Positions 7,201-56,923 of a stretch of 64,000 bases of DNA are shown here, piece by piece. Below the pieces are notes generated by a model. That model did not search any database. It was not told where the DNA came from and saw only the letters and a list, made by a program, of their open reading frames with translations. Every line of letters starts with the position of its first letter. Positions within the stretch are counted from its first letter, which is position 1. This DNA comes from Alloascoidea africana (lineage: Eukaryota > Ascomycota > Alloascoideomycetes > Alloascoideales > Alloascoideaceae), in contig JAKTTT010000013.1 in the NCBI GenBank assembly GCA_030581615.1, positions 310,001 through 374,000 of the forward strand, written 5' to 3'. The translations under genes and the position numbers were made by a program.

Positions 7201-10200
7201 CTAGCTAGGTTTCTTATTTAAAAGAGACAGAAGCGACTGAGAAGCACTCTCGTTGCGCTGTAATGAGCTTGCTGATCCCGCGGGAGAAGCAACTGGTGGA
7301 ACATTCACATGTTGAGAAGGAGGTGGAGAAAGTAGAGAGAGTAGCGATTGAGCAGGCGTGCTTGGATGCGACTCCAACTCGGGACTTGCTTTGGTCATGG
7401 GAACTGGCGGAGGACTCTTCTTTCTGTTCAAAAGAGCCATCAAAGAAGCACCGCTATCGCCATTCACACCAGATTTAGATGGTGAGCTTCCATATGCTTT
7501 GGGTGTTACGGTTCGAGCCTCGCTGTTTCCTTCACTAGCATTTTCCGTGACCCTTGAATTCTGCTCAACCCGTACTGCATCTGCCCCTTCAATTTTCTTT
7601 GCGTTTTTATTCAATAGCGATAGCAACGAAGCACTTGGAGACATGGGCTCAGTAGAAACAGATTCTTCGCGATTACTGTTTTCGGGTTCGCTTCTGACTG
7701 GGGGAGTAGGCGTAGTTGGCTTCTTGTTCAGTAGCGATAGCAAAGAACTACTCTCTGTAGATGTCGCGATTGGTGCCGGAAATGGAGGTGACACTGATTT
7801 TAAACCAGGGGTAGTAATTGAGCTCGGGCTGTTTTCACTTTGGTTTGGAACTGCATTTCGGTTCAACAAAGAGAGTAAAGAGACACCAGCACTGACATTA
7901 CTGTTACTAACAACGGTCTTGCTATCAACCTCAGTCAGACGTCCCCTTTGATCCACGCTTGAGTTTGTAGTGGCCTCAGATGAGGGTTCCTCTTTTGGTT
8001 CCCTGTTCAGGAGCTTCAGTAAAGCGTTGGCACCACCACCAGACGCTGGCACTTCTTGAGGCTTGGGGCCCAATGTTGGCGATAAAACAGTCTGCTTTTG
8101 AGAGCCTGAGCTCCCTTGTGGAGCCTTATTTAGCAGTCCCAAAAGCGAATTAGTAGCTTCTTTATTCGTTACAGGCTTTTTAGTAACCGGTTTCAAAGGC
8201 TCATAATCTTCTGATCTAAAATGGTCTCCGATATGAGATTGCTGGTAAGGAAGATGTGATTGTCCTGGGATAAACGGGGAAGCTGATTTGGAACTTGCCT
8301 TGCTATGAGATTTCACTCGCTCAGTTCGTTCCCTTTCTATAGCCGGTCCGGTAGGAATAGTTTCATTCTCCCACGGAATTAAACTACCTTGATCAGCATT
8401 GCCCATCTTGCCGTTTTCCTTGTCGGGAATTGGGGCATTTAGGTTGTGTGTCTTGGTGGTTGATGGAGTTTCTTTCTGTTTCTCAGTTTGATTAAGAAGC
8501 TTCAAAATCTCTTTAGAAGATTCATTAGAAAAAGTAGATGTTTTGGTATCGGCCTCAGTGTCTTTCTTCTCTTTATTAACACCTCTATTTAGCATGGAAA
8601 GTAAGTCACTTGCCGCATTCCTAGATTCTTTCTCATCAGTGATTTTCCCGGTTTCTGTCTTTACACTGTTTGGCGCACTTTCAGTGGATTCTCCCTCATC
8701 ACCACTCTCAACAGTGTTTTCTCTCTTTGGAGGCTTTTTCTCTCGCAGAAGAGAGAGCATATATTGAGAGGTGTTGTTCGAAATTGTCCTCAAGTGGCGA
8801 ACTTTTGGAGTAACTGGTGATTTATCAACAGAGGGTGATTCTTTCCTGGTTTCTCTGGGGCTCGTCAGCAGGTCTAATAATGATCTAGAAGGAATGGGTC
8901 CTGCGGATTGATCGGAACTTCCGTAGTAACCATCATCATCGTCATCCTCGTCATATCTATGATTTGTAGAGTTCTTCAAATCCCGAACCTTTTCTAGCGT
9001 TTGGGCTTGGAATTCGGATAAATTTCGAGGATGTCTATTTGCAGTCAGAATATGAGGCCGCAATAGCTTGGGGGAAGCTTTAGCCATTGATGCTTGAGGT
9101 GGGACTTTCGGTGATGCTGCGAGGCTTTGAATTGGAGGACTGGTAGAAGCCTGTGTTTTCTGAGGAGTATTAGTGTTGGCGTTCAAAGCGTTAAGGAATG
9201 GGAAGGGTGGCGGTTGAATGCCAGGGAACGGTAATTGCGGTGTAGCTGCATTTGCAGTGAATTGATCTGAAGTAGAAGGCAAGCCCAATGAAGGAGCCAG
9301 CATTTGGGGCATGAAAGGACCTTGGAACGGGAAGCCGTTGGGGAACAAAAACGGAGGAAACATTTGGGGCATTGGCATTGGCATAAATGACATGGGAAGA
9401 ATGTTAATTGGTGGTTGTTGGCCATTCCAATCGGGTGGAGGAGATGTGACTAACTGCGAAGATTGAGTTGGTTCGTGTTGCGGTTCTGTCTGTGATTGTT
9501 GATCTGATTTGGGTGGAACGGTGGCCTCTTTCCTAGCAGCGCTATCTGTACTGCTTTTTACCAAATTTAACAATTGAGCTGAATCGGCCCCATTATCTGC
9601 TTGATTACTTCTATGCAGCAAATTAAGCAGTTCTCTTCCCGGATCTTGTTGAGGAAAAGTTGCGTTTTCAGCGTTTGACTTCCCAAATATGCCAACACCA
9701 AGAGCCTTTTTAAGCTCAACTTCAGCTTGTAATAGTTGCTCATTCGTAGTCGACGACTTTTCCTTGCCCTTTGCTTTTCTAATCCATTTCATCAAGGGTC
9801 TTATAAAAGGTAGCACTATGAAAAACGCATTGCTGTTGATTCGGCCTTTGCTCAAAGATTTGATATCGTGCCATTCAATTTGCTAATATGTTTTGTTAGA
9901 AATCCGGCAAATCTTGCAAATAGGTCTTGTTACATACACTGATTTCATTTCGTGTTTGTGGAACAAACGAAGTATCCATGGGAATATCCTGTATGATATA
10001 CATTTTGTAGTTTTTGCCATTTATCGTTCGGTCAATGTATTCATCTTTATTCATATGCGCTCCAATGTCAAATCCAATCTCCTCAAACACTTCTCGAATG
10101 GCACAGCTCTCGTCACTTTCATCCTTGCTGATCTTGCCTCTAGGGAACCCCCATGCTGAGTTTTGACTCATGCCTTTAACCAAAAGCACTTTTGTCAACT

Positions 10201-10605
10201 TTTTGTTTAAAATCATTGCACCTCGAACTGGAATTCCAGACTTGTAAAGTCCAAACTGCCTAACTGCATTTTCTTTATCCTCCCATTTCCATATATAAGG
10301 GTACAGTGAGATCATCCTATCAGAAAATGATTTCATCTTCATGGATGGCAGTTGTGGGTTCTGATATCTGGCAAAATCAAGATAAAACCATTGCGCTTCT
10401 TCTATTTGAAAGAATAGTCTCTTGATGAAGTCAATAATAGAAGTTAGTTCAATTGTCCATTAAAAGTAACAAACAGACCGCCACAACAAACCTCGACAGA
10501 TGCTACGTCCTCTGGAGGACAGTTAATCACGAACCGCACGAGAAGATCTTCTAAAACTCTTTCCTGAGATTCGCCTGCGTATGTATAATTCAGCGGTATA
10601 GACAT
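7201..10605 (-). CDS. DCP2: mRNA-decapping enzyme Dcp2, three exons
   Basis: Exons 10605-10492, 10420-9938 and 9882-7201 give a 1092-residue protein. Intron 1 (71 nt) starts GTTTGT and has an AACTAAC branch site; intron 2 (55 nt) starts GTATGT with TTCTAAC. The junctions restore the Dcp2 order: N-terminal domain (residues 1-95, with [13 protein letters not shown] and QWFYLDF), Nudix fold ([23 protein letters not shown], catalytic glutamates in the Nudix box) and box B ([11 protein letters not shown]). Dcp2 cleaves the m7G cap of mRNA. The third exon, apart from its first residues, is a disordered tail of about 850 residues with a Pro/Met/Phe-rich stretch (about 360-430). In it a short motif of the type SLLSLLNK recurs 14 times; such helical leucine-rich motifs bind Edc3 and Pat1 in fungal Dcp2. 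The last copy ends four residues before the C-terminus. Confidence 0.93.
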
Positions 10606-18363: not shown

Positions 18364-18947
18364 CTACTCGCTCTTGACCAGAATCCGCTTCAGCTGCTCC
18401 AGATTCTCCTCTATCCGCTGTTCCTCGTCTGGCGAGATGGCCCGCTCGGGGTCCTTGCTGGTGTCGGTCTGGCTCAGCAGCCACGTCTCCTTGAGGCTTC
18501 GCGTCGTCATCAGCAGCTCCTCGATTTGCTTGACCTGTTCAATAGCCCGTTCTGGTGAGTATCAGATGTGTGTGTGGCCTGGCCGTAGTCCCGTAGTCCC
18601 GTAGTCTCTTTATTCAAAAAGAATGCTTACAATCATGTTTGCGTTTACCTCGATTTGGTAAATCTCCGTCGCCAGCTTATCCTGCGACTTGCCCGATACC
18701 TACTCCCTCGTATTCGCAGACAATGTTAGATGGGTCCTGTCGTCACATATATCTTTCGGTATCGTTCACTGCCACATACAGAGGCAAGATCGATGATGGT
18801 GGAGTATCGCGTCACCAGCTGTTCGGTGATGGAATCGACCTTTTCTGCAGCGTTGTCTCCGTGTTAGTGTACGCTAAGCAGAGAACACCATAGCAGAGAC
18901 CTCTCTGAAGGACACATACGCAGTAGAGTGCTCGTCCGCTGCTGCAT
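18364..18947 (-). CDS. MED22: Mediator head subunit Med22 (Srb6), four exons
   Basis: Exons 18947-18920, 18844-18780, 18699-18631 and 18534-18364 encode 110 residues (S. cerevisiae Srb6 has 121). Introns of 75, 80 and 96 nt start GTATGT, GTATGT and GTAAGC; the first two have CACTAAC and ATCTAAC branch sites. The joined product runs MQQRTSTLLQKVDSITEQL, then EIYQIEVNANMIVKQIEELL and TRSLKETWLLSQ, which aligns without gaps to human MED22 (AANIVRAGESL...SDLKQFL) and to yeast Srb6 (LTRSIKEKWLLNQ). Med22 is a core Mediator head subunit bridging activators and RNA polymerase II. The acceptor of intron 3 was chosen at 18535 because it alone keeps the family alignment; the nearby CCAG gives the wrong frame. 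DSN1 follows on the same strand. Confidence 0.88.
18584..18609. repeat. Short tandem repeat in MED22 intron 3
   Basis: Three head-to-tail copies of a 9-base unit CCGTAGTCC inside the third MED22 intron. No function seen. Confidence 0.6.
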
Positions 18948-19256
18948 TTCGCTCCGGAAACGTGGTGATGGCGGCCTTTGGCGGTTTGTGTCTGCTCTTC
19001 TGGAAAGAGTGCGGCTGCTGCTTTCTTTATGACTCAGGCTCAGGTGTCAAACTTCCGGACTCAGCTTCGCGGCTGCGCGCCTTCTCTTTTTGGCCCGCCC
19101 CATTGTCTAAGCGCCTAAAAAAAAAAATTCGAGGACTCTGAAAAGTCAACGCTTTCTTCTACTATCCACCAGTCCAGACCTATAAAGGGTTCTCGTCCAA
19201 CAGATTCTCTTTTTTTTTGCTCTCATTACATCCCCTGTGCCGGTGTTAACAGTGAT
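18948..19256. promoter_or_regulatory. Divergent promoter, MED22 / DAHP-synthase-like gene
   Basis: 309 bp between the two start codons. It holds the Gcn4-type TGACTCA at 19030-19036, a poly-A run near 19118 and a TATAAAGG-like sequence near 19181 on the plus strand. Confidence 0.55.
19030..19036. promoter_or_regulatory. Gcn4/CpcA-type site TGACTCA
   Basis: A perfect TGACTCA palindrome, 221 bp before the DAHP-synthase-like ATG and 83 bp before the MED22 ATG. Gcn4 activates amino-acid biosynthetic genes, so the DAHP-like gene is the likelier target. Inference from motif and distance only. Confidence 0.55.
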
Positions 19257-20409
19257 ATGGATTCTTCAACAAACAGTCTCTCATCAAGACCCTCGACCCA
19301 GGCCTCAAGGTCCGGAACGCCCAGCAGTATTGCTTCCTCGGCAACAAACTGCTCTAGTTTCTACTGTAAGATTTACTCGCTCTTGTTAATGTCACTCTTG
19401 CTCCCAAAAAATTTATGACTCTTAGTATCTAACGTTTCCACATATAGCTCGAGGAGCAGAATCAATCCCATCGCCCGAGGTTCTCCAACAACTGCTACCT
19501 ACTACTCCACAGACAGAACAGCAGGTTATGTTTGGCAGAAGTGAAACAGAGGCCATCATCACAGGTTCCTCTTCAAAGCTGCTGGTTGTGCTGGGACCAG
19601 ATGCAATTACGAATGTCGAAGGTGCCGTAAAGTATGCCAAGGCTCTTTCTGTGATCAAACACAAGTACCCGAATCTAGTGCTTACGATGCGGGCAAATCT
19701 ACACAAGCGACCCCAAAACGGTATAGATGGATGGGATGGGCTCATCGTGGACCCCAACTTAACCGGGGTTGGCAGAGACTTGAACAAGGGAATAACAACT
19801 GCTCGCTCATTGTTGTTACAGCTTAACGATTACATACCGGTCTGTGGAGAACTAGTTGATACGATATCGCCTCAGTATCTAGGTGATCTTGTTTCCTTTG
19901 GGTCAATAGGTTGTGCAAATACCGAGTCCCAACTGCACAGAGAACTGGTCAGCGGGCTTTCTTTCCCAGTCGGCTTCCATACCCGTGCCGGTTCGCTACT
20001 GGACTACAGCACAGGAATGGCAAAAAACGCAATGCTGAGTGCTAGCCATCCTCATCATTTCTTATCCATCACAAAGTTCGGCACGTGTGCCATTATTGGA
20101 TCAGCAGGGAATAAAGATACGTTCCTGATTGTAAACGAAGATGGGGAGGAAGAGGTCAAGTATGACTGCCTCTTGGACCAGAAAACTTTCCCTGGTCGCA
20201 GAATTATGGTACATAGCTCTCTGAAACCAAAAGAATCCATTCAAAGGCTGGTTAAAAGACTTCAACGGAATAATAGCCTGAAAGATAATATCGGAGGGGT
20301 TTTGATTGAATCAACGGATAAAGACGTCCCCACTGCCCACGATGCTCTGAATTGGGAAGAAACGATACAAGCTTTGGAATTGCTCAACTCTTCTTATGCT
20401 CATAATTAA
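19257..20409 (+). CDS. DAHP-synthase homologue, probable pseudoenzyme
   Basis: Exons 19257-19365 and 19448-20409 encode 356 residues; the 82-nt intron starts GTAAGA and has a TATCTAAC branch site. Full-length homology to class I DAHP synthase (Aro3/Aro4) is plain: NKGITTARSLLLQLND, DTISPQYLGDL, NTESQLHRELVSGLSFPVGF, HPHHFLSITK. DAHP synthase joins PEP and erythrose 4-phosphate at the first step of the shikimate pathway. Several essential residues are changed. The metal-binding Cys of GPC(S) is Asp88, the metal His of the (D)xSH motif is Leu295, the metal Asp near the end is His334, the PEP-binding Arg of GARTTES is Ala193, and the Lys of VGFK is His214. The metal Glu (Glu324) and the MR..K pair (Arg118, Lys123) remain. 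The first 60 residues are Ser/Thr-rich and unlike Aro3. The frame is intact, so it is probably a regulatory or repurposed paralogue. Confidence 0.85.
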
Positions 20410-20533: not shown

Positions 20534-20985
20534 TTATTTTATGTTTCCAGTTCTAATTGCGTTTTCATCCAGACCCGGAGAATATCCTAAATCCTCAGCC
20601 AGCTCCAGCATCTGTCTTTTCCTCTCCAATTGCATTATAGTCGTCCGGCGATCAAACTCGCACATCCTTTTTTCTGCTCCGCGAACTGCAAAAGCAGTAA
20701 TAAATAAGATGAGATATACAGCGTTCACTTGGAAAGTGGTTCTTGCTCGAAACTTGTCCCAAAACCGGTACATGAGCGCAAATGAGCCGATTCCGAGCAC
20801 GGTTCCCTTAGCGCCACCGTGAGCTCCTCCTATCAAAATCTAACCACAGAAAGTTAGCTATTCTTCCCCAGATACAGAAGAGATGGGCAGTTAAATGGGG
20901 CCATTCATAGGTGAGCTGACTACTCAAACCTTACCTCTCGTCGAAGGGCTTGCATGTTCTCTGGCGAGCGTCTATAAGATTTCAT
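20534..20985 (-). CDS. RCF3: Rcf3-type respirasome factor, two exons
   Basis: Exons 20985-20935 and 20839-20534 encode 118 residues. The 95-nt intron starts GTAAGG and has an AGCTAAC branch site 14 nt before its end. The product matches yeast Rcf3 (120 residues) along its core: REILIGGAHGGAKGTVLG against KEITVASCIGAAQGALFS, followed by two hydrophobic segments (about residues 20-42 and 54-72) and a charged helix rich in Arg and Glu. Rcf3 and the related N-terminal half of Rcf2 are inner mitochondrial membrane proteins that associate with cytochrome c oxidase and respiratory supercomplexes. Similarity is moderate, so the exact orthology needs an alignment. It ends 124 bp from the convergent end of the DAHP-like gene. 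Confidence 0.65.
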
Positions 20986-24389: not shown

Positions 24390-25738
24390 TGAAAATATCT
24401 CTGAAAGCTGTTTTTTTTTTATATTTAAAGAACTCAAACACCAACTTTTACTTTTATTTTTAGACTATTATCCTTATAATGTGGGAAGACAAATGGATTG
24501 AGTATCAATAGTCTCACCTATCCGCCTACAAACGCTTGGTGCTTTCTCAGCCACAACTTTGGCTCTAAAAATTAGACTTGGCAAAGGTAAAAAAGCTGCC
24601 TTAATGGCATTGAAATGGAAATTTTCATATATCATGTACTGGCAAAAATTATACGGGCTGAGATGTTATTAATGTACTCTCATAAGCTGTCTTTGCGTCT
24701 TGCATACTGAAATTTCTGGTGCATGACGATTGCTGTGGCAGGTTAAACAATCCAGTTTATGGAAACAGAAAAGATCCAAAAAAACTCATGTCTAAATTGT
24801 TTTTCGAATAAAGGATTCTTGTAGGTTTCTGCCAAAAACGTGCATCTTGTTATTCAATCTTTTTCATTAAATGTGAAACCTTTCTCATGCCCTGATGTAT
24901 GCATACCTGCCTGAGATGCCACCACTCCACATTGATCCGATCTTTTAAACCTTCGGCTTTCTTTAAATGCCCTGGTGTTTACATTCTAAGGGTCTATTAT
25001 CCTGCATAAAGTCAGGCACTTATTTTGATCCGTTACAGAACGGATCGGACATTCTTCATAAGTATACTAGTGCTTGCAACACACGTTTAAAGCTGACCCC
25101 GATTTAAGGCGAGGATAAATAACTAAGATGGCTGGTTGCTCAAGTCCTGCCATACAAGTTCTGACAAAAACAAACTTTTCAAGCATCTTATTTTCACACA
25201 GTATACTCTAAGAAATCCTAAAACATTGTAATTACAGTAGGCATTAAAGGTTTCAAGCAAATCATATTGTGCTTGTCGGCCAATTGATTACTGACCCTAA
25301 TATGTGTATTATATTGCTTGGCAAAGTCTGATCCATCAGCTATAGTTTCAAAATTTACTGGTAAAACCGTATCGGTTTGACCCTTGAGATCAAGAAAAAG
25401 GATGACATAAACTGTGGACTTAGATGCAAGAGATGCAAGCTCATTTTTTGACACCGTAATGCATGATCCAGCCCAACTCGATCTTTCAGTTAAAACCAAA
25501 TTTTCTATGTTACAAGATACTTGATCAGAAAAGGGCCTAGTATGGGCTTCCAATAATAAAGTGTTGCATGATAATTAATTAATTGCGGACTCTGCTCCTC
25601 TTTGGAGCGTCGCTCGGCATTGGAAAAAATCACACAACTGCAATCGCACCAAGACGCTCGGAGTATGGCATTAGCCTTGGAAAGCCTGAACAAGCCAAGA
25701 TTTTAAATTCCAATGTCAATTCAAACACCATACAAGGG

Positions 25739-25746
25739 TATATAAA
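25739..25746 (+). promoter_or_regulatory. TATA box of the AA9 gene
   Basis: TATATAAA, 164 bp upstream of the AA9 start codon and the only strong TATA sequence in the proximal promoter. It is followed by a pyrimidine-rich leader (CTCTTCACCTCTTCACTC). Confidence 0.55.
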
Positions 25747-25902
25747 CCCACTCCCACTCCCTTTCCATTTGGTTTATCATCCTTCACTGAGCTGGAATCC
25801 TCTTCACCTCTTCACTCTTTTCTGAATATCTGGCATATTCGCAAATCATCGCATTCCTTCACTTCAAAAGACTACAATCATTACAATCTTCCCAAACCGA
25901 AC

Positions 25903-27069
25903 ATGAAACTTTCAACCCAAGTTTTTGCTGCTGCTGCACTAGCTTCCTATGCCGCTGGACACGGTATAGTTCAAGACCTCAAAGTTGGCGATCAGTGGGA
26001 AACTGCTTGGCTGGTTTACCAAGATGTTTATGCCAACCCAGTTCCCGACAGAGTCGTTTGGAAATTCACAGGTGGAAATGGTCCTGTTGAAGATGTTACA
26101 AGTGATGCCATTACCTGCAATGTTGATGCTGTTTATGGCGGTCTTAGTACCTCCATTGAAGCTGGTGGCCAGATTACTTTCTACTGGACCGATTGGCCCG
26201 AGTCCCATCAAGGACCAGTTATGACCTATCTGGCAAAAGTTGATGGCGACTTTGAATCTGCTGATCCCCAAAGCCTTTCATACTTCAAGATTGACGAAGC
26301 TGGATACAGTAATGGCGTCTGGGCTGCTGAAGAATTGATTGCCAACAACAACTCATGGACCGTCACTATTCCTTCTGATATCGAAGCTGGAAACTATCTT
26401 GTAAGACATGAGATTTTGGCTCTCCACAGCGGTTTTAACACCAACGGTGCTCAGTTCTACCCAATGTGTGTCAGCTTGGAGGTTACTGGAGGGGGAAGTG
26501 CTAACCCTGAAGGTGTTAGCTTCCCAGGAGCTTACAGTGCCACTGACCCAGGTATTCTTTGCAACATTCACAGCGGTCTCACTGAGTACGTGATCCCCGG
26601 ACCCGCTGTTTACGGTTCAGGCTCTTCAGGATCCTCTGGTTCCTCAGGATCATCTGGTTCCGGTTCCGATTCTACTACTTCTACCACCAAAGCTGCTGGT
26701 ACCTCTGCTGCTACTACTCTCGAAGAAACTGTGAGCCAAGCAACAACTTTGCCTTCAACAACTCTTGATGGAGAACAAAACGATGTTGCTACCTCCCCAG
26801 TTTCTTCGGCAAACACTCTACAAACACAATACGTTACTCCCACCACCGCAGCAGGGACGACGGCAACAAAGACTACAGCTGAACCCACAGCAAATGACGA
26901 CGCCACTGAGACCGAGTCCGTTCCTGATGCCTGCTTCACTGACCCTGTCGAATTCAATGCCTGTCTTGACGAGGTTAATGACTGTATCAGAAAAGCTCAG
27001 TCCCCAACTGGCGGTCAAAATGACCTTTCTATTTGCGAAGCTAAGCGCGCCGCTTGTGCTTTTTGCTAG
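25903..27069 (+). CDS. Secreted AA9 lytic polysaccharide monooxygenase with six-Cys tail
   Basis: 388 residues. The signal peptide (1-19, ending ASYAAG) leaves His20 as the mature N-terminus, which is needed because in AA9 enzymes the N-terminal His forms the copper histidine brace. The second brace His is His102 (ESHQGPVMTYLAKV); His169 (LVRHEILALHS), Gln184 and Tyr186 (NGAQFYPMC) complete the family active site. Cys72 and Cys189 fit the usual disulphide. AA9 enzymes oxidatively cut cellulose or hemicellulose outside the cell. A Gly/Ser/Thr-rich linker (about 238-340) leads to a 45-residue module with six cysteines (344, 354, 361, 378, 385, 388). This is not a CBM1 cellulose-binding domain, which has four and a different pattern. 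AA9 genes are known from Geotrichum among budding yeasts. No intron is visible. Confidence 0.93.
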   Translation: MKLSTQVFAAAALASYAAGHGIVQDLKVGDQWETAWLVYQDVYANPVPDRVVWKFTGGNGPVEDVTSDAITCNVDAVYGGLSTSIEAGGQITFYWTDWPESHQGPVMTYLAKVDGDFESADPQSLSYFKIDEAGYSNGVWAAEELIANNNSWTVTIPSDIEAGNYLVRHEILALHSGFNTNGAQFYPMCVSLEVTGGGSANPEGVSFPGAYSATDPGILCNIHSGLTEYVIPGPAVYGSGSSGSSGSSGSSGSGSDSTTSTTKAAGTSAATTLEETVSQATTLPSTTLDGEQNDVATSPVSSANTLQTQYVTPTTAAGTTATKTTAEPTANDDATETESVPDACFTDPVEFNACLDEVNDCIRKAQSPTGGQNDLSICEAKRAACAFC

Positions 27070-54825: not shown

Positions 54826-56923
54826 TCACCATATTGGCAGAAAGTTGCCTACAATCATCATTGGAATATCAAAAACGTCTCTCTTTATCGTCCATGTACA
54901 CGCAGTTCGGATCTTACCCTCGTTGAAAAGCGAACTGGGCGAATTGTAGAGTGACCTGTTGCCCTGTACGTATTTTGTGTTTTTGCTACCGTCATGGAGA
55001 TACCCACCGGATGAAGATCCCGGTAGAGGTAGAGGCAAGTCCAACTTCATGCCATTTGCGTTTGCACCCTCACCGCCTTCTGTTCCGTTTTGCTTGTCTG
55101 GATGGACTTGATCATTTGCATTTTGCATCCTGTTTTGAAATCTTTTCTTTTGTGCCAATTCGGGGCGTAGGAGTGTGCACTCGGTCATTGTGGCTCCTCT
55201 TGAATCTCCAAAGGCCATGTCGCTGAAGAGCTTAAAATAGTCGACGATACTCTTATCGTCGAACAGTTCCACTATCAGAGTTCGTTTGCCGAGCAGTTGC
55301 GAACGAGTCCAACCCGTAAGCATACAAAACTCTTTGCCAACGGCGGCAATCTCTCCTGTACGCCGCCAGATGATGGTCGGCGTGGCACTGAAAGAGATGA
55401 ACTTTTCGTACTCCAGTAAAGTCCGCTGGAAGCATTTTTCCATGAAAACCAGATCCTCCACTTGCAGCGTTTTGATTGTTGCGATGAACGAGGGACGGTA
55501 GGCGGCCATCGCCTGGATGACCGTGGTCAGCGTTGGTTTATCGAGCCGCTGGGACAGATAGGACAGCAGCGCGTGGAAGCCCGCGGTATAGGAAAACGGC
55601 TTTGAGACATTGCGATAGACTGTCTCCGGGGTCTGAAGGTTTTTCGGCACTGGGCGATTTCCACCGGCATTGAAAGCTGGATAGGAAGGCGACCGAGAAC
55701 TGCTGGCGTTATAGTAAGAAGCCCCCGGAGACAGACTCGTCAGTGCTCCTTGAACCGGAGGACGCATTGCTCCCAGATGACCACCTTGCTGTGGCGGTCT
55801 TTGCACTTGTGTCTGTGCTTGAGTATGAGTATGAGTCTGGGCTTGGGCTTGGGCTTGAGGCTGGGTCTGCGAATGGAGATGGAACATGTCTAGCGAAGGC
55901 ACATCGCCGAGGCTGCCTGCTCCATCGTCAAACAGCACGGTTGGGCTTGCGCTGGATCGGTCGGCCAAGGACAGGCCTGGGATCAAACGCTTATCGCTGG
56001 TGTCAGGGTCGCTGCTGGAGCTGCCTGGGGCCAGCATGTTGGAGATGATTTCGTACTCCAGGTCTGCGGTCTTGGAATCGAAACGGGCGGGAAGCAGCTG
56101 GTTATACCCCGGCTGAACCGACTGCGACTGCGACTGCGACTGAGACTGAGATTGGGCCTGTGCCTGGGACGACGAGGGCAGCATCGACATGGCCACGGGC
56201 GTGCTGGAAGGCGTTGGCGGGACATTTGAAGGCAGAATCGAGGACACAGAGGGCAGGGCCAGCTGGAGATGCTGCTCCACGGGCCTTACTCTCGCAGAAG
56301 CATTTGGCGTTGACGTTGAGATTGGTCCCTGTCTTTTTGCACTCTCAATTTCGTCCGCAAGCAGATACTTTGCCTTTTTCCTAACGCCGTTTCTACATGT
56401 CGCGGCGAGGCCCTTTCGGATACACGACTGGCAGGGACGGCCTGGAAAATATGGTTAGTTGGTTAACGAGTTGGCTTTTCTGTGCTGGTGCCCAAACCAA
56501 AAAAAAAAATTCAAACTTACCGTCGTCGCAACTCAAATGCGATTTCTGACAGTTTGTGCATGCCCTGCTTGACTTTCTTCGCTTTTTGGGTTTTGTCTGG
56601 CTTGGATATTGAGTTTGAAATTGCTGCTGGGGTTGCGATTGCTGGTTGGGCTCGGAAACGGCAGCGGAGGAGGGCGAGGAAGGGGGGATGATCAGAGGCT
56701 TCTTCTGGCCTGGCTGCTGGGACGGAGGAGGAGGCGGGTCCGCCACGCCCACGTCTCCAGCAGCCGAGACGAGGGATCGATCGAGAAGGTCCACCTGGTG
56801 GGAGTCGTTATCGGGCTGCTGCTGGAGATGGCGTCCCCTCGGAGGCAGCAGCTGCAGAGCAGAGTTGGAGGAGGACGGGTTCGTTTGGGAACGGACAGCC
56901 ACGGAGGTTGATTCCGAGGGCAT
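54826..56923 (-). CDS. ERT1: Zn2Cys6-PAS transcription factor of the ERT1/AcuK type, two exons
   Basis: Exons 56923-56521 and 56441-54826 encode 672 residues. The 79-nt intron starts GTAAGT, has an AACTAAC branch site and splits the zinc cluster between the third and fourth cysteine. The joined cluster reads CTNCQKSHLSCDDGRPCQSC, continuing through IRKGLAATC and NGVRKKAKYLL (Cys122 to Cys150), the pattern of Ert1/AcuK/AcuM regulators. These act on gluconeogenic and ethanol-utilisation genes. A PAS domain lies at about 475-590 (TPTIIWRRTGEIAAVGKEFCMLTGWTRSQLLGK, in part). The middle is rich in Gln, Ser and Pro with long Gln-Ala, Gln-Ser and Gln-Thr alternations. The ERT1, GSM1 and RDS2 subfamilies are close, so the symbol is provisional. 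It is divergent from GLC3. Confidence 0.8.

Follow-up and report, generated by a model that had tools for sequence, protein, structure and literature searches.

The gene at positions 19257-20409 of the window (the whole 64-kb stretch of DNA that was analysed) is, as judged by its sequence, a diverged full-length relative of the fungal type I-alpha DAHP synthases. Homology to these enzymes, an open frame, a predicted fold and lost catalytic residues, the features by which a pseudoenzyme is recognized, are all found in it. The feedback pocket is retained and the lid of this pocket is lost. From its residues the candidate is very probably not a DAHP synthase. The best explanation, to which we give about an even chance, is a folded pseudoenzyme under selection, which would have arisen from a duplicated Phe-type (Aro3-like) DAHP synthase and would pair with Aro3/Aro4 and tune them.

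Gene model, surroundings and predicted fold

An ATG at 19257 opens a predicted spliced gene of 356 aa on the + strand (Table 1). The initial annotation had joined two exons by a splice with a good branch site, and this model holds: the join is in frame, the 356-aa frame is open, the donor is GTAAGA and a CTAAC lies 14 nt before the intron end. Read unspliced, the exon-1 frame runs into a stop at 19418, so splicing would be needed. Other matches in the window share the form of this intron, which is weak support, because the window intron search required GT..CTAAC..AG and their common form is by construction. Introns in the yeast Geotrichum candidum are short, with a median of 71 nt in the available text of PMC4479816. 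The first 37 residues of the candidate include 15 Ser. From codon 38 onward the sequence pairs gaplessly with the N-terminal region of 6u8j over 44 residues (tblastn). When the 6u8j N-terminus was used as tblastn query for an alternative first exon bearing the usual GYDPL lid, the sole match with E<0.1 was the start of exon 2 at 19450.

Table 1. Coordinates of the candidate gene, its residues of interest and its surroundings
Feature	Position	Strand	Details and basis
Exon 1	19257..19365	+	109 nt; Ser-rich N-terminus, residues 1-36 and first base of codon 37; in-frame join, composition
Intron (predicted)	19366..19447	+	82 nt; GTAAGA donor; CTAAC branch-like motif, then 14 nt ending in TAG
Exon 2	19448..20409	+	DAHP-synthase-like barrel, residues 37-356 and stop; homology, predicted fold
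Feedback-lid position, S33 S34 .. Y36 S37 for AroG D6 D7 .. R9 I10	19353..19365	+	L-INS-i alignment
Asp88 for metal-ligand Cys61	19600..19602	+	Cys in 78/78 relatives; 78/78 pairwise alignments, three schemes
Gln126 Asn127 for Arg99 Thr100 of KPRT motif	19714..19719	+	L-INS-i and pairwise alignments
Pocket segment D174-D183, DTISPQYLGD (AroG 146-155), kept	19858..19887	+	Sites according to the available text of PMC9529685 and PMC10349828
Cys192 Ala193 for Ala164 Arg165 (PEP site)	19912..19917	+	L-INS-i and pairwise alignments
Pocket residues L203 .. L207 S208 (AroG L175, L179, S180), kept	19945..19962	+	Alignment
His214, likely replacement of Lys186	19978..19980	+	Strand register; most pairwise alignments choose Arg216, two residues further
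Pocket hairpin F241, S243, K246 (AroG F209, S211, K214), mostly kept; I244, I253 for Val	20059..20097	+	Available text of PMC10349828
Asn266 for Arg234	20134..20136	+	Alignments: N266, E267 or gap, basic in none
Leu295, likely at metal-ligand His268	20221..20223	+	Strand register; MAFFT gaps His292 there; L295 rare in pairwise alignments
Glu324, metal-ligand Glu302 retained	20308..20310	+	L-INS-i and pairwise alignments
His334 or adjoining Asp335 at metal-ligand Asp326	20338..20343	+	Register and alignments
Possible new barrel-mouth metal ligands Asp88, His122, Cys192, His214, His334	19600-19602, 19702-19704, 19912-19914, 19978-19980, 20338-20340		
Gcn4-type site TGACTCA	19030-19036		220 nt before candidate ATG
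Probable multi-exon gene, divergent to candidate	18367-18510	-	Weak match to Med22 (Mediator), 17 bits (cut-off 26)
Short ORF directly downstream of candidate, convergent	20534-20836	-	Without Pfam match; possible intron 20934-20840
AA9 lytic polysaccharide monooxygenase	25690-27069	+	PF03443, 224 bits; Ser/Thr-rich tail
Possible intron	9883-9937	-	Would join ORF 9896-10459 (Nudix/Dcp2-like by eye) to low-complexity ORF 7201-9882
Protein with ERT1/acuK-type PAS domain	54826-56454	-	PF24990, 162 bits; possible intron 56520-56442

The Gcn4-type site upstream of the gene had been taken to suggest amino-acid control. The site is real, but its motif is not above chance frequency: TGACTCA occurs 8 times in the window against 11.6 expected, and at least 8 copies arose in 93 of 100 shuffles. 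We therefore reject it as a sign of amino-acid control. The candidate and the Med22-like gene are divergent, so the intervening site may serve either. The window also encodes an asparagine synthase, a primase, Mis13 and an alpha-aminoadipate-reductase-like protein, which we take to be LYS2-like. The Mis13 gene lies on the same side of the candidate as the Med22-like gene. Enzymes of the AA9 family, of which the window holds one member (Table 1), are reported for G. candidum in the available part of PMC5596469. The window resembles DNA of a Saccharomycotina yeast with introns, and the AA9 gene and the short introns would suit a member of the Dipodascaceae, which is a guess. A second DAHP synthase was sought within the 64-kb window by tblastn with six DAHP synthases, and the best other match had an E-value of 0.018.

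The candidate matches PF00793 with 108 bits (cut-off 25.5) and TIGR00034 with 178 bits (cut-off 173.2). Its best sequence matches in the PDB are 6u8j (183 bits), 7ykc (yeast Aro3) and 1og0/1hfb (Aro4). Over aligned columns it is 40.1% identical to 6u8j, 37.5% to Aro4, 36.8% to Aro3 and 33.8% to AroG; for scale, Aro4 and AroG are 56% identical. The upstream part, SPEVLQQLLPTTPQT, pairs with the N-terminal extension of Aro3/Aro4, which argues that the protein is full length. AlphaFold2 with exon 2 and 72 relatives gives a DAHP-synthase-like barrel with a mean pLDDT of 89 and a pTM of 0.90. Ten strands of at least three residues follow the DAHP-synthase order. The last barrel strand is scarcely assigned, and it is short in the model of a control protein too. 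The top Foldseek match of the model is 1hfb (Aro4), with a TM-score of 0.88 by query length. Insertions are seen in the KPRT loop and in the loop after Lys186. Since the supplied alignment raises the confidence of AlphaFold, the (β/α)8 fold is well predicted rather than proven. The description of the gene as a full-length paralogue that keeps its frame and most of its fold agrees with the 356-aa frame, the pLDDT and the similarity to 1hfb.

Replacement of catalytic residues

The alignment query gave AroG-type proteins, namely the best 80 of 589 relatives in prokaryote genome contigs and 23 viral loci. The patterns used to collect the relatives covered the Arg165 block, with Ala allowed there. 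The model alignment holds 72 of the 103 loci (57/80 genome, 15/23 viral); 23 redundant genome loci and 8 viral loci (one near-copy and seven partial) were removed by hand. With Aro4, 7reu, 7ykc, 6u8j, AroG and one phage protein these 72 loci form the set of 78 relatives against which the catalytic residues were checked, in AroG numbering and by pairwise alignment under three scoring schemes. By tblastn, 476 plasmid and 209 phage records were matched, every best place at less than 60% identity. Among the tblastn matches listed (40 plasmid, 10 phage), those with a named product are DAHP synthases, some 'hypothetical protein' entries aside. A pattern search with exon 2 in prokaryote genome contigs gave 15 matches, none of them a relative, and a pattern search of viral contigs with a 293-aa part gave 7, again none a relative. 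The collections searched were those of prokaryotes and viruses, in which the absence of a fungal orthologue says little.

In the L-INS-i alignment C61, R92, K97, P98, R99, T100, E143, G163, A164, R165, K186, R234, H268 and E302 are invariant in 78/78 relatives, and D326 in 77/77. We take C61, R92, P98, R99, T100, R165 and D326 to be catalytic positions, with the roles given here. In all three scoring schemes and all 78 pairwise alignments, C61 is replaced by D88, R99 by Q126, T100 by N127, A164 by C192 and R165 by A193. The exchanges of the Cys ligand for Asp88 and of the PEP-site Arg for Ala193, both proposed in the initial annotation, are thus independent of the scheme. The position of R234 is occupied by N266, E267 or a gap, and by a basic residue in none of the pairwise alignments. 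Among the basic residues that bind the phosphates of PEP and E4P (the KPRT Arg, Arg165, Lys186 and Arg234), three of four are lost in every pairwise alignment. Retained residues are P98, E143 and G163 (78/78), the metal ligand Glu302 as Glu324 (67-73/78) and, depending on the scoring scheme, R92 and K97 (36-78/78). On the alignments, the loss of one metal ligand, the Cys, and of three arginines is firm. It makes DAHP synthase activity of the candidate very unlikely.

The other three positions depend on the alignment. Pairwise under the three schemes, Lys186 falls on Arg216 in 55-63 of the 78 alignments and on His214 in 13-21, and Asp326 falls on Asp335 in 27-51 and on His334 in 14-26. His268 is paired with His292 in 14-43 of 78, with Leu295 in at most 10 among the rows listed, and otherwise with gaps and other residues. 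MAFFT with 79 sequences places His292 at H268 by means of gaps, and an alignment of five sequences scores D326 as kept. To set the register of strands and helices, an AroG-type protein (L006) was modeled with AlphaFold as a control; its pLDDT is 93, and its alignment held 43 loci and the candidate beside the target. The candidate strand 211-216 (VGFHTR) corresponds to VGFK 183-186 of the control, and strand 289-293 (IMVHS) to VMID 262-265. The last helix begins at W339 in the candidate and at W331 in the control. The stretch from strand 7 to the helix, with the loop after His268, is about 5 residues shorter in the candidate. This register leads to His214, Leu295 and His334, which are the assignments of the initial annotation, and in the models the counterparts of Lys186, His268 and Asp326 are likely lost.

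On realignment the changes at Cys61 and Arg165 stand, while Lys186 falls on Arg216 in most, and His268 and Asp326 on His292 and Asp335 in part, of the pairwise alignments. The claim that at least three of the four metal ligands are replaced therefore divides: the loss of Cys is firm, the losses of His and Asp are likely by register but alignment-dependent, and Glu is kept. To call the protein stripped of its metal residues is too strong, because metal-capable residues are still present at three of the four metal positions; Asp88, Glu324 and His334 or Asp335 could hold a metal.

The feedback pocket and its lid

The pocket was defined by 13 positions, the inhibitor-site and feedback-resistant residues of type I enzymes in the available text of PMC9529685. 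The C. glutamicum numbers used there were turned into AroG numbers (offset 8, later 6), and some of the pairs are stated in that text. This set supersedes an earlier, partly hand-picked set of 14 positions (p=0.014 against the catalytic positions). Fifteen catalytic positions were compared with it, 8 from the same source and the 7 that we take to be catalytic (see above). Retention was counted where two Aro3-type references agree. In the pocket 11 of 13 residues are identical to these references, and the other two are changed from Val to Ile. The catalytic positions retain 7/15, in an alignment that credits His268, and all other positions 86/222. The p-value is 0.002 for pocket against other positions, 0.055 for pocket against catalytic positions and 0.59 for catalytic against other positions. 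When the count is limited to positions at which four fungal enzymes and AroG all agree, 9/10 pocket, 7/15 catalytic and 58/119 other residues are kept.

Feedback type in the yeast isoenzymes, Aro3 (Phe) and Aro4 (Tyr), goes with a Ser/Gly residue according to the available text of PMC10349828. Ser243 of the candidate is the Ser of the Phe-sensitive Aro3 at this inhibitor-type position, and the counterparts of Aro3 D154, Q159 and K222 are retained in the alignment as well. The conserved block NTESQLHRELVSGLSFPVGF, described earlier as intact, contributes AroG L175, L179 and S180 to the feedback pocket (available text of PMC9529685). The segment table ranks the pocket, its surrounding blocks and the hairpin as the best-kept parts of the candidate. 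In the block 143-186, 8/8 pocket, 20/28 other and 2/5 catalytic residues are kept; in the hairpin block 205-236 the numbers are 3/5 for the pocket and 13/18 for the others. Non-pocket positions in these blocks are also well kept, so the retention of the pocket is not clearly separate from that of its blocks and, by these counts, may ride on it.

The lid has a different fate from the pocket. Its acidic pair, presumably D6 and D7 in AroG, is lost in the L-INS-i alignment, with Ser-rich sequence in its place. Without a lid of its own, the candidate as a homodimer is hardly expected to bind Phe in the manner of Aro3. The N-terminal extension and the hairpin of type I-alpha enzymes contribute to both the tight dimer and the Phe site (PMC4735112 and PMC10349828, available text), and in Aro3 the lid over the Phe site is supplied by the second subunit (PMC10349828, same text).

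Selection, alternative histories and possible role

To simulate neutral decay, a gene that encodes 6u8j in the codon usage of the window was mutated at random, without indels. A retention of 56% is what the 40% identity to 6u8j implies, if normal divergence explains 0.72 (the 6u8j-Aro3 identity). At this retention none of 300 runs was stop-free (mean 7.2 stops), while 4/300 were at 70% and 14/300 at 80%. The candidate retains 55 of 61 strongly hydrophobic family columns of the core. Neutral runs keep 46.3 ± 3.1 of these at 56% retention, where 0/500 reach the level of the candidate, and 51.5 ± 2.9 at 70%, where 70/500 do. These counts make a largely neutral history unlikely, and we consider it probable that the gene has been maintained by selection. 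There may have been a short late neutral phase or a milder decay. The selected-pseudoenzyme pattern read from the gene at the outset survives in that neutral decay to the implied divergence fails to yield such a frame and core; at milder decay some runs do. In a tree of 25 sequences the candidate branch measures 6.8 changes per column, compared with a median of 0.24 for end branches. Such a branch can mean changed, possibly relaxed, constraint. It also makes the placement in the tree unreliable, so the Aro3-like assignment rests only on pairwise identity and Ser243. By codon preference the coding frame does not stand out among the frames of this gene. Its GC content by codon position resembles that of the LYS2-like gene.

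Three other histories have to be weighed against a selected partner of Aro3/Aro4. The chief rival to a non-catalytic partner is a rebuilt site: the barrel would be neofunctionalised, with another metal or small molecule held in the old active site and a role unrelated to Aro3/Aro4. The ligands could be Asp88, Glu324 and His334 (or Asp335), with Cys192, His214 and His122. Five of 10 changed active-site residues, in a list made by hand, became His, Cys, Asp or Glu, and the metal-capable residues at three metal positions, the very long branch, the insertions in the KPRT loop and after Lys186, and a deletion after His268 all suit such remodeling. The pocket, however, is better kept than the catalytic and other positions, which speaks more for sensing, and we regard a new function of the old site as unlikely, at somewhat better than one chance in five. 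Recent or slow decay, in which a duplicate under relaxed constraint heads for loss with the stop yet to come, we rate at just about one in five. It accords with the same long branch, with catalytic positions kept no better than background, with the lack of a codon-preference signal and with the simulations at 70% retention, in which some runs stay open and some keep the core as well. The runs at about 0.56 retention, with their many stops, contradict it, as do the number of core hydrophobics and the intact frame and splice signals, and indels, left out of the simulations, would bring added frameshifts.

The remaining alternative, a still-active DAHP synthase that uses Arg216, His292 and Asp335 for Lys186, His268 and Asp326 by means of local shifts, draws on the pairwise placements given above for these three residues and on the retention of R92, K97, E143 and E302. 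It offers no like residue for C61, R99, R165 or R234 in any pairwise alignment, and the strand and helix registers favor H214, L295 and H334. This alternative is highly improbable.

Under the preferred reading, a selected pseudoenzyme beside active isoenzymes, the expressed protein would form the tight dimer of type I-alpha enzymes together with a catalytic subunit, Aro3 or Aro4. The intact N-terminal lid of the partner would close the Phe pocket of the candidate, and the Ser-rich N-terminus of the candidate would take the place of the lid over the pocket of the partner. The candidate could then sense phenylalanine without catalysis and shift the feedback inhibition or the stability of the active subunit. 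By analogy with known systems, a regulatory role toward Aro3/Aro4 is possible, though we lean toward doubting it. A more specific version is that of a dedicated Phe-sensing dead subunit, in which the live lid closes the dead pocket, while the live pocket is covered by a Ser-rich lid that may be phosphorylated and is thereby desensitized or rewired. Two gene products would then share the feedback control of the first step of the shikimate pathway. This version we think improbable, with roughly a one-in-five chance of being right. If the preferred reading is true, nature would have separated sensing from catalysis where the shikimate pathway begins, which would be of use for engineering feedback control in aromatic production.

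Regulation of active enzymes by their dead paralogues is a familiar theme. In the open-access literature searched, no report of a dead DAHP synthase paralogue was found among the matches listed. The partner role proposed here is inferred from the kept pocket and the dimer-forming hairpin, and its model is the trypanosome AdoMetDC prozyme, a catalytically dead paralogue that activates its partner. The likeness is in the proposed logic only, a dead paralogue kept as oligomer partner; the prozyme belongs to an unrelated family and its heterodimer is shown by crystal structure (PMC5201418, available text), whereas the heterodimer of the candidate is a proposal. The closest known structures are Aro3/Aro4 (7ykc, 1hfb; also 6u8j), with which the candidate shares the predicted fold, the Phe-type Ser pocket, Glu302 and 37-40% identity. 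It differs from them in the replaced Cys ligand, KPRT Arg, Arg165 and Arg234, and probably in Lys186, His268 and Asp326 too. It also has a Ser-rich exon for the acidic lid, and two of its loops are shorter, one following strand 7 and one preceding the last helix. Between the Ser/Gly-type isoenzymes Aro3 (Phe) and Aro4 (Tyr), Ser243 places the candidate on the side of the Phe-sensitive type (PMC10349828, available text). Compared with the active isoenzymes, it appears to keep the sensing half only.
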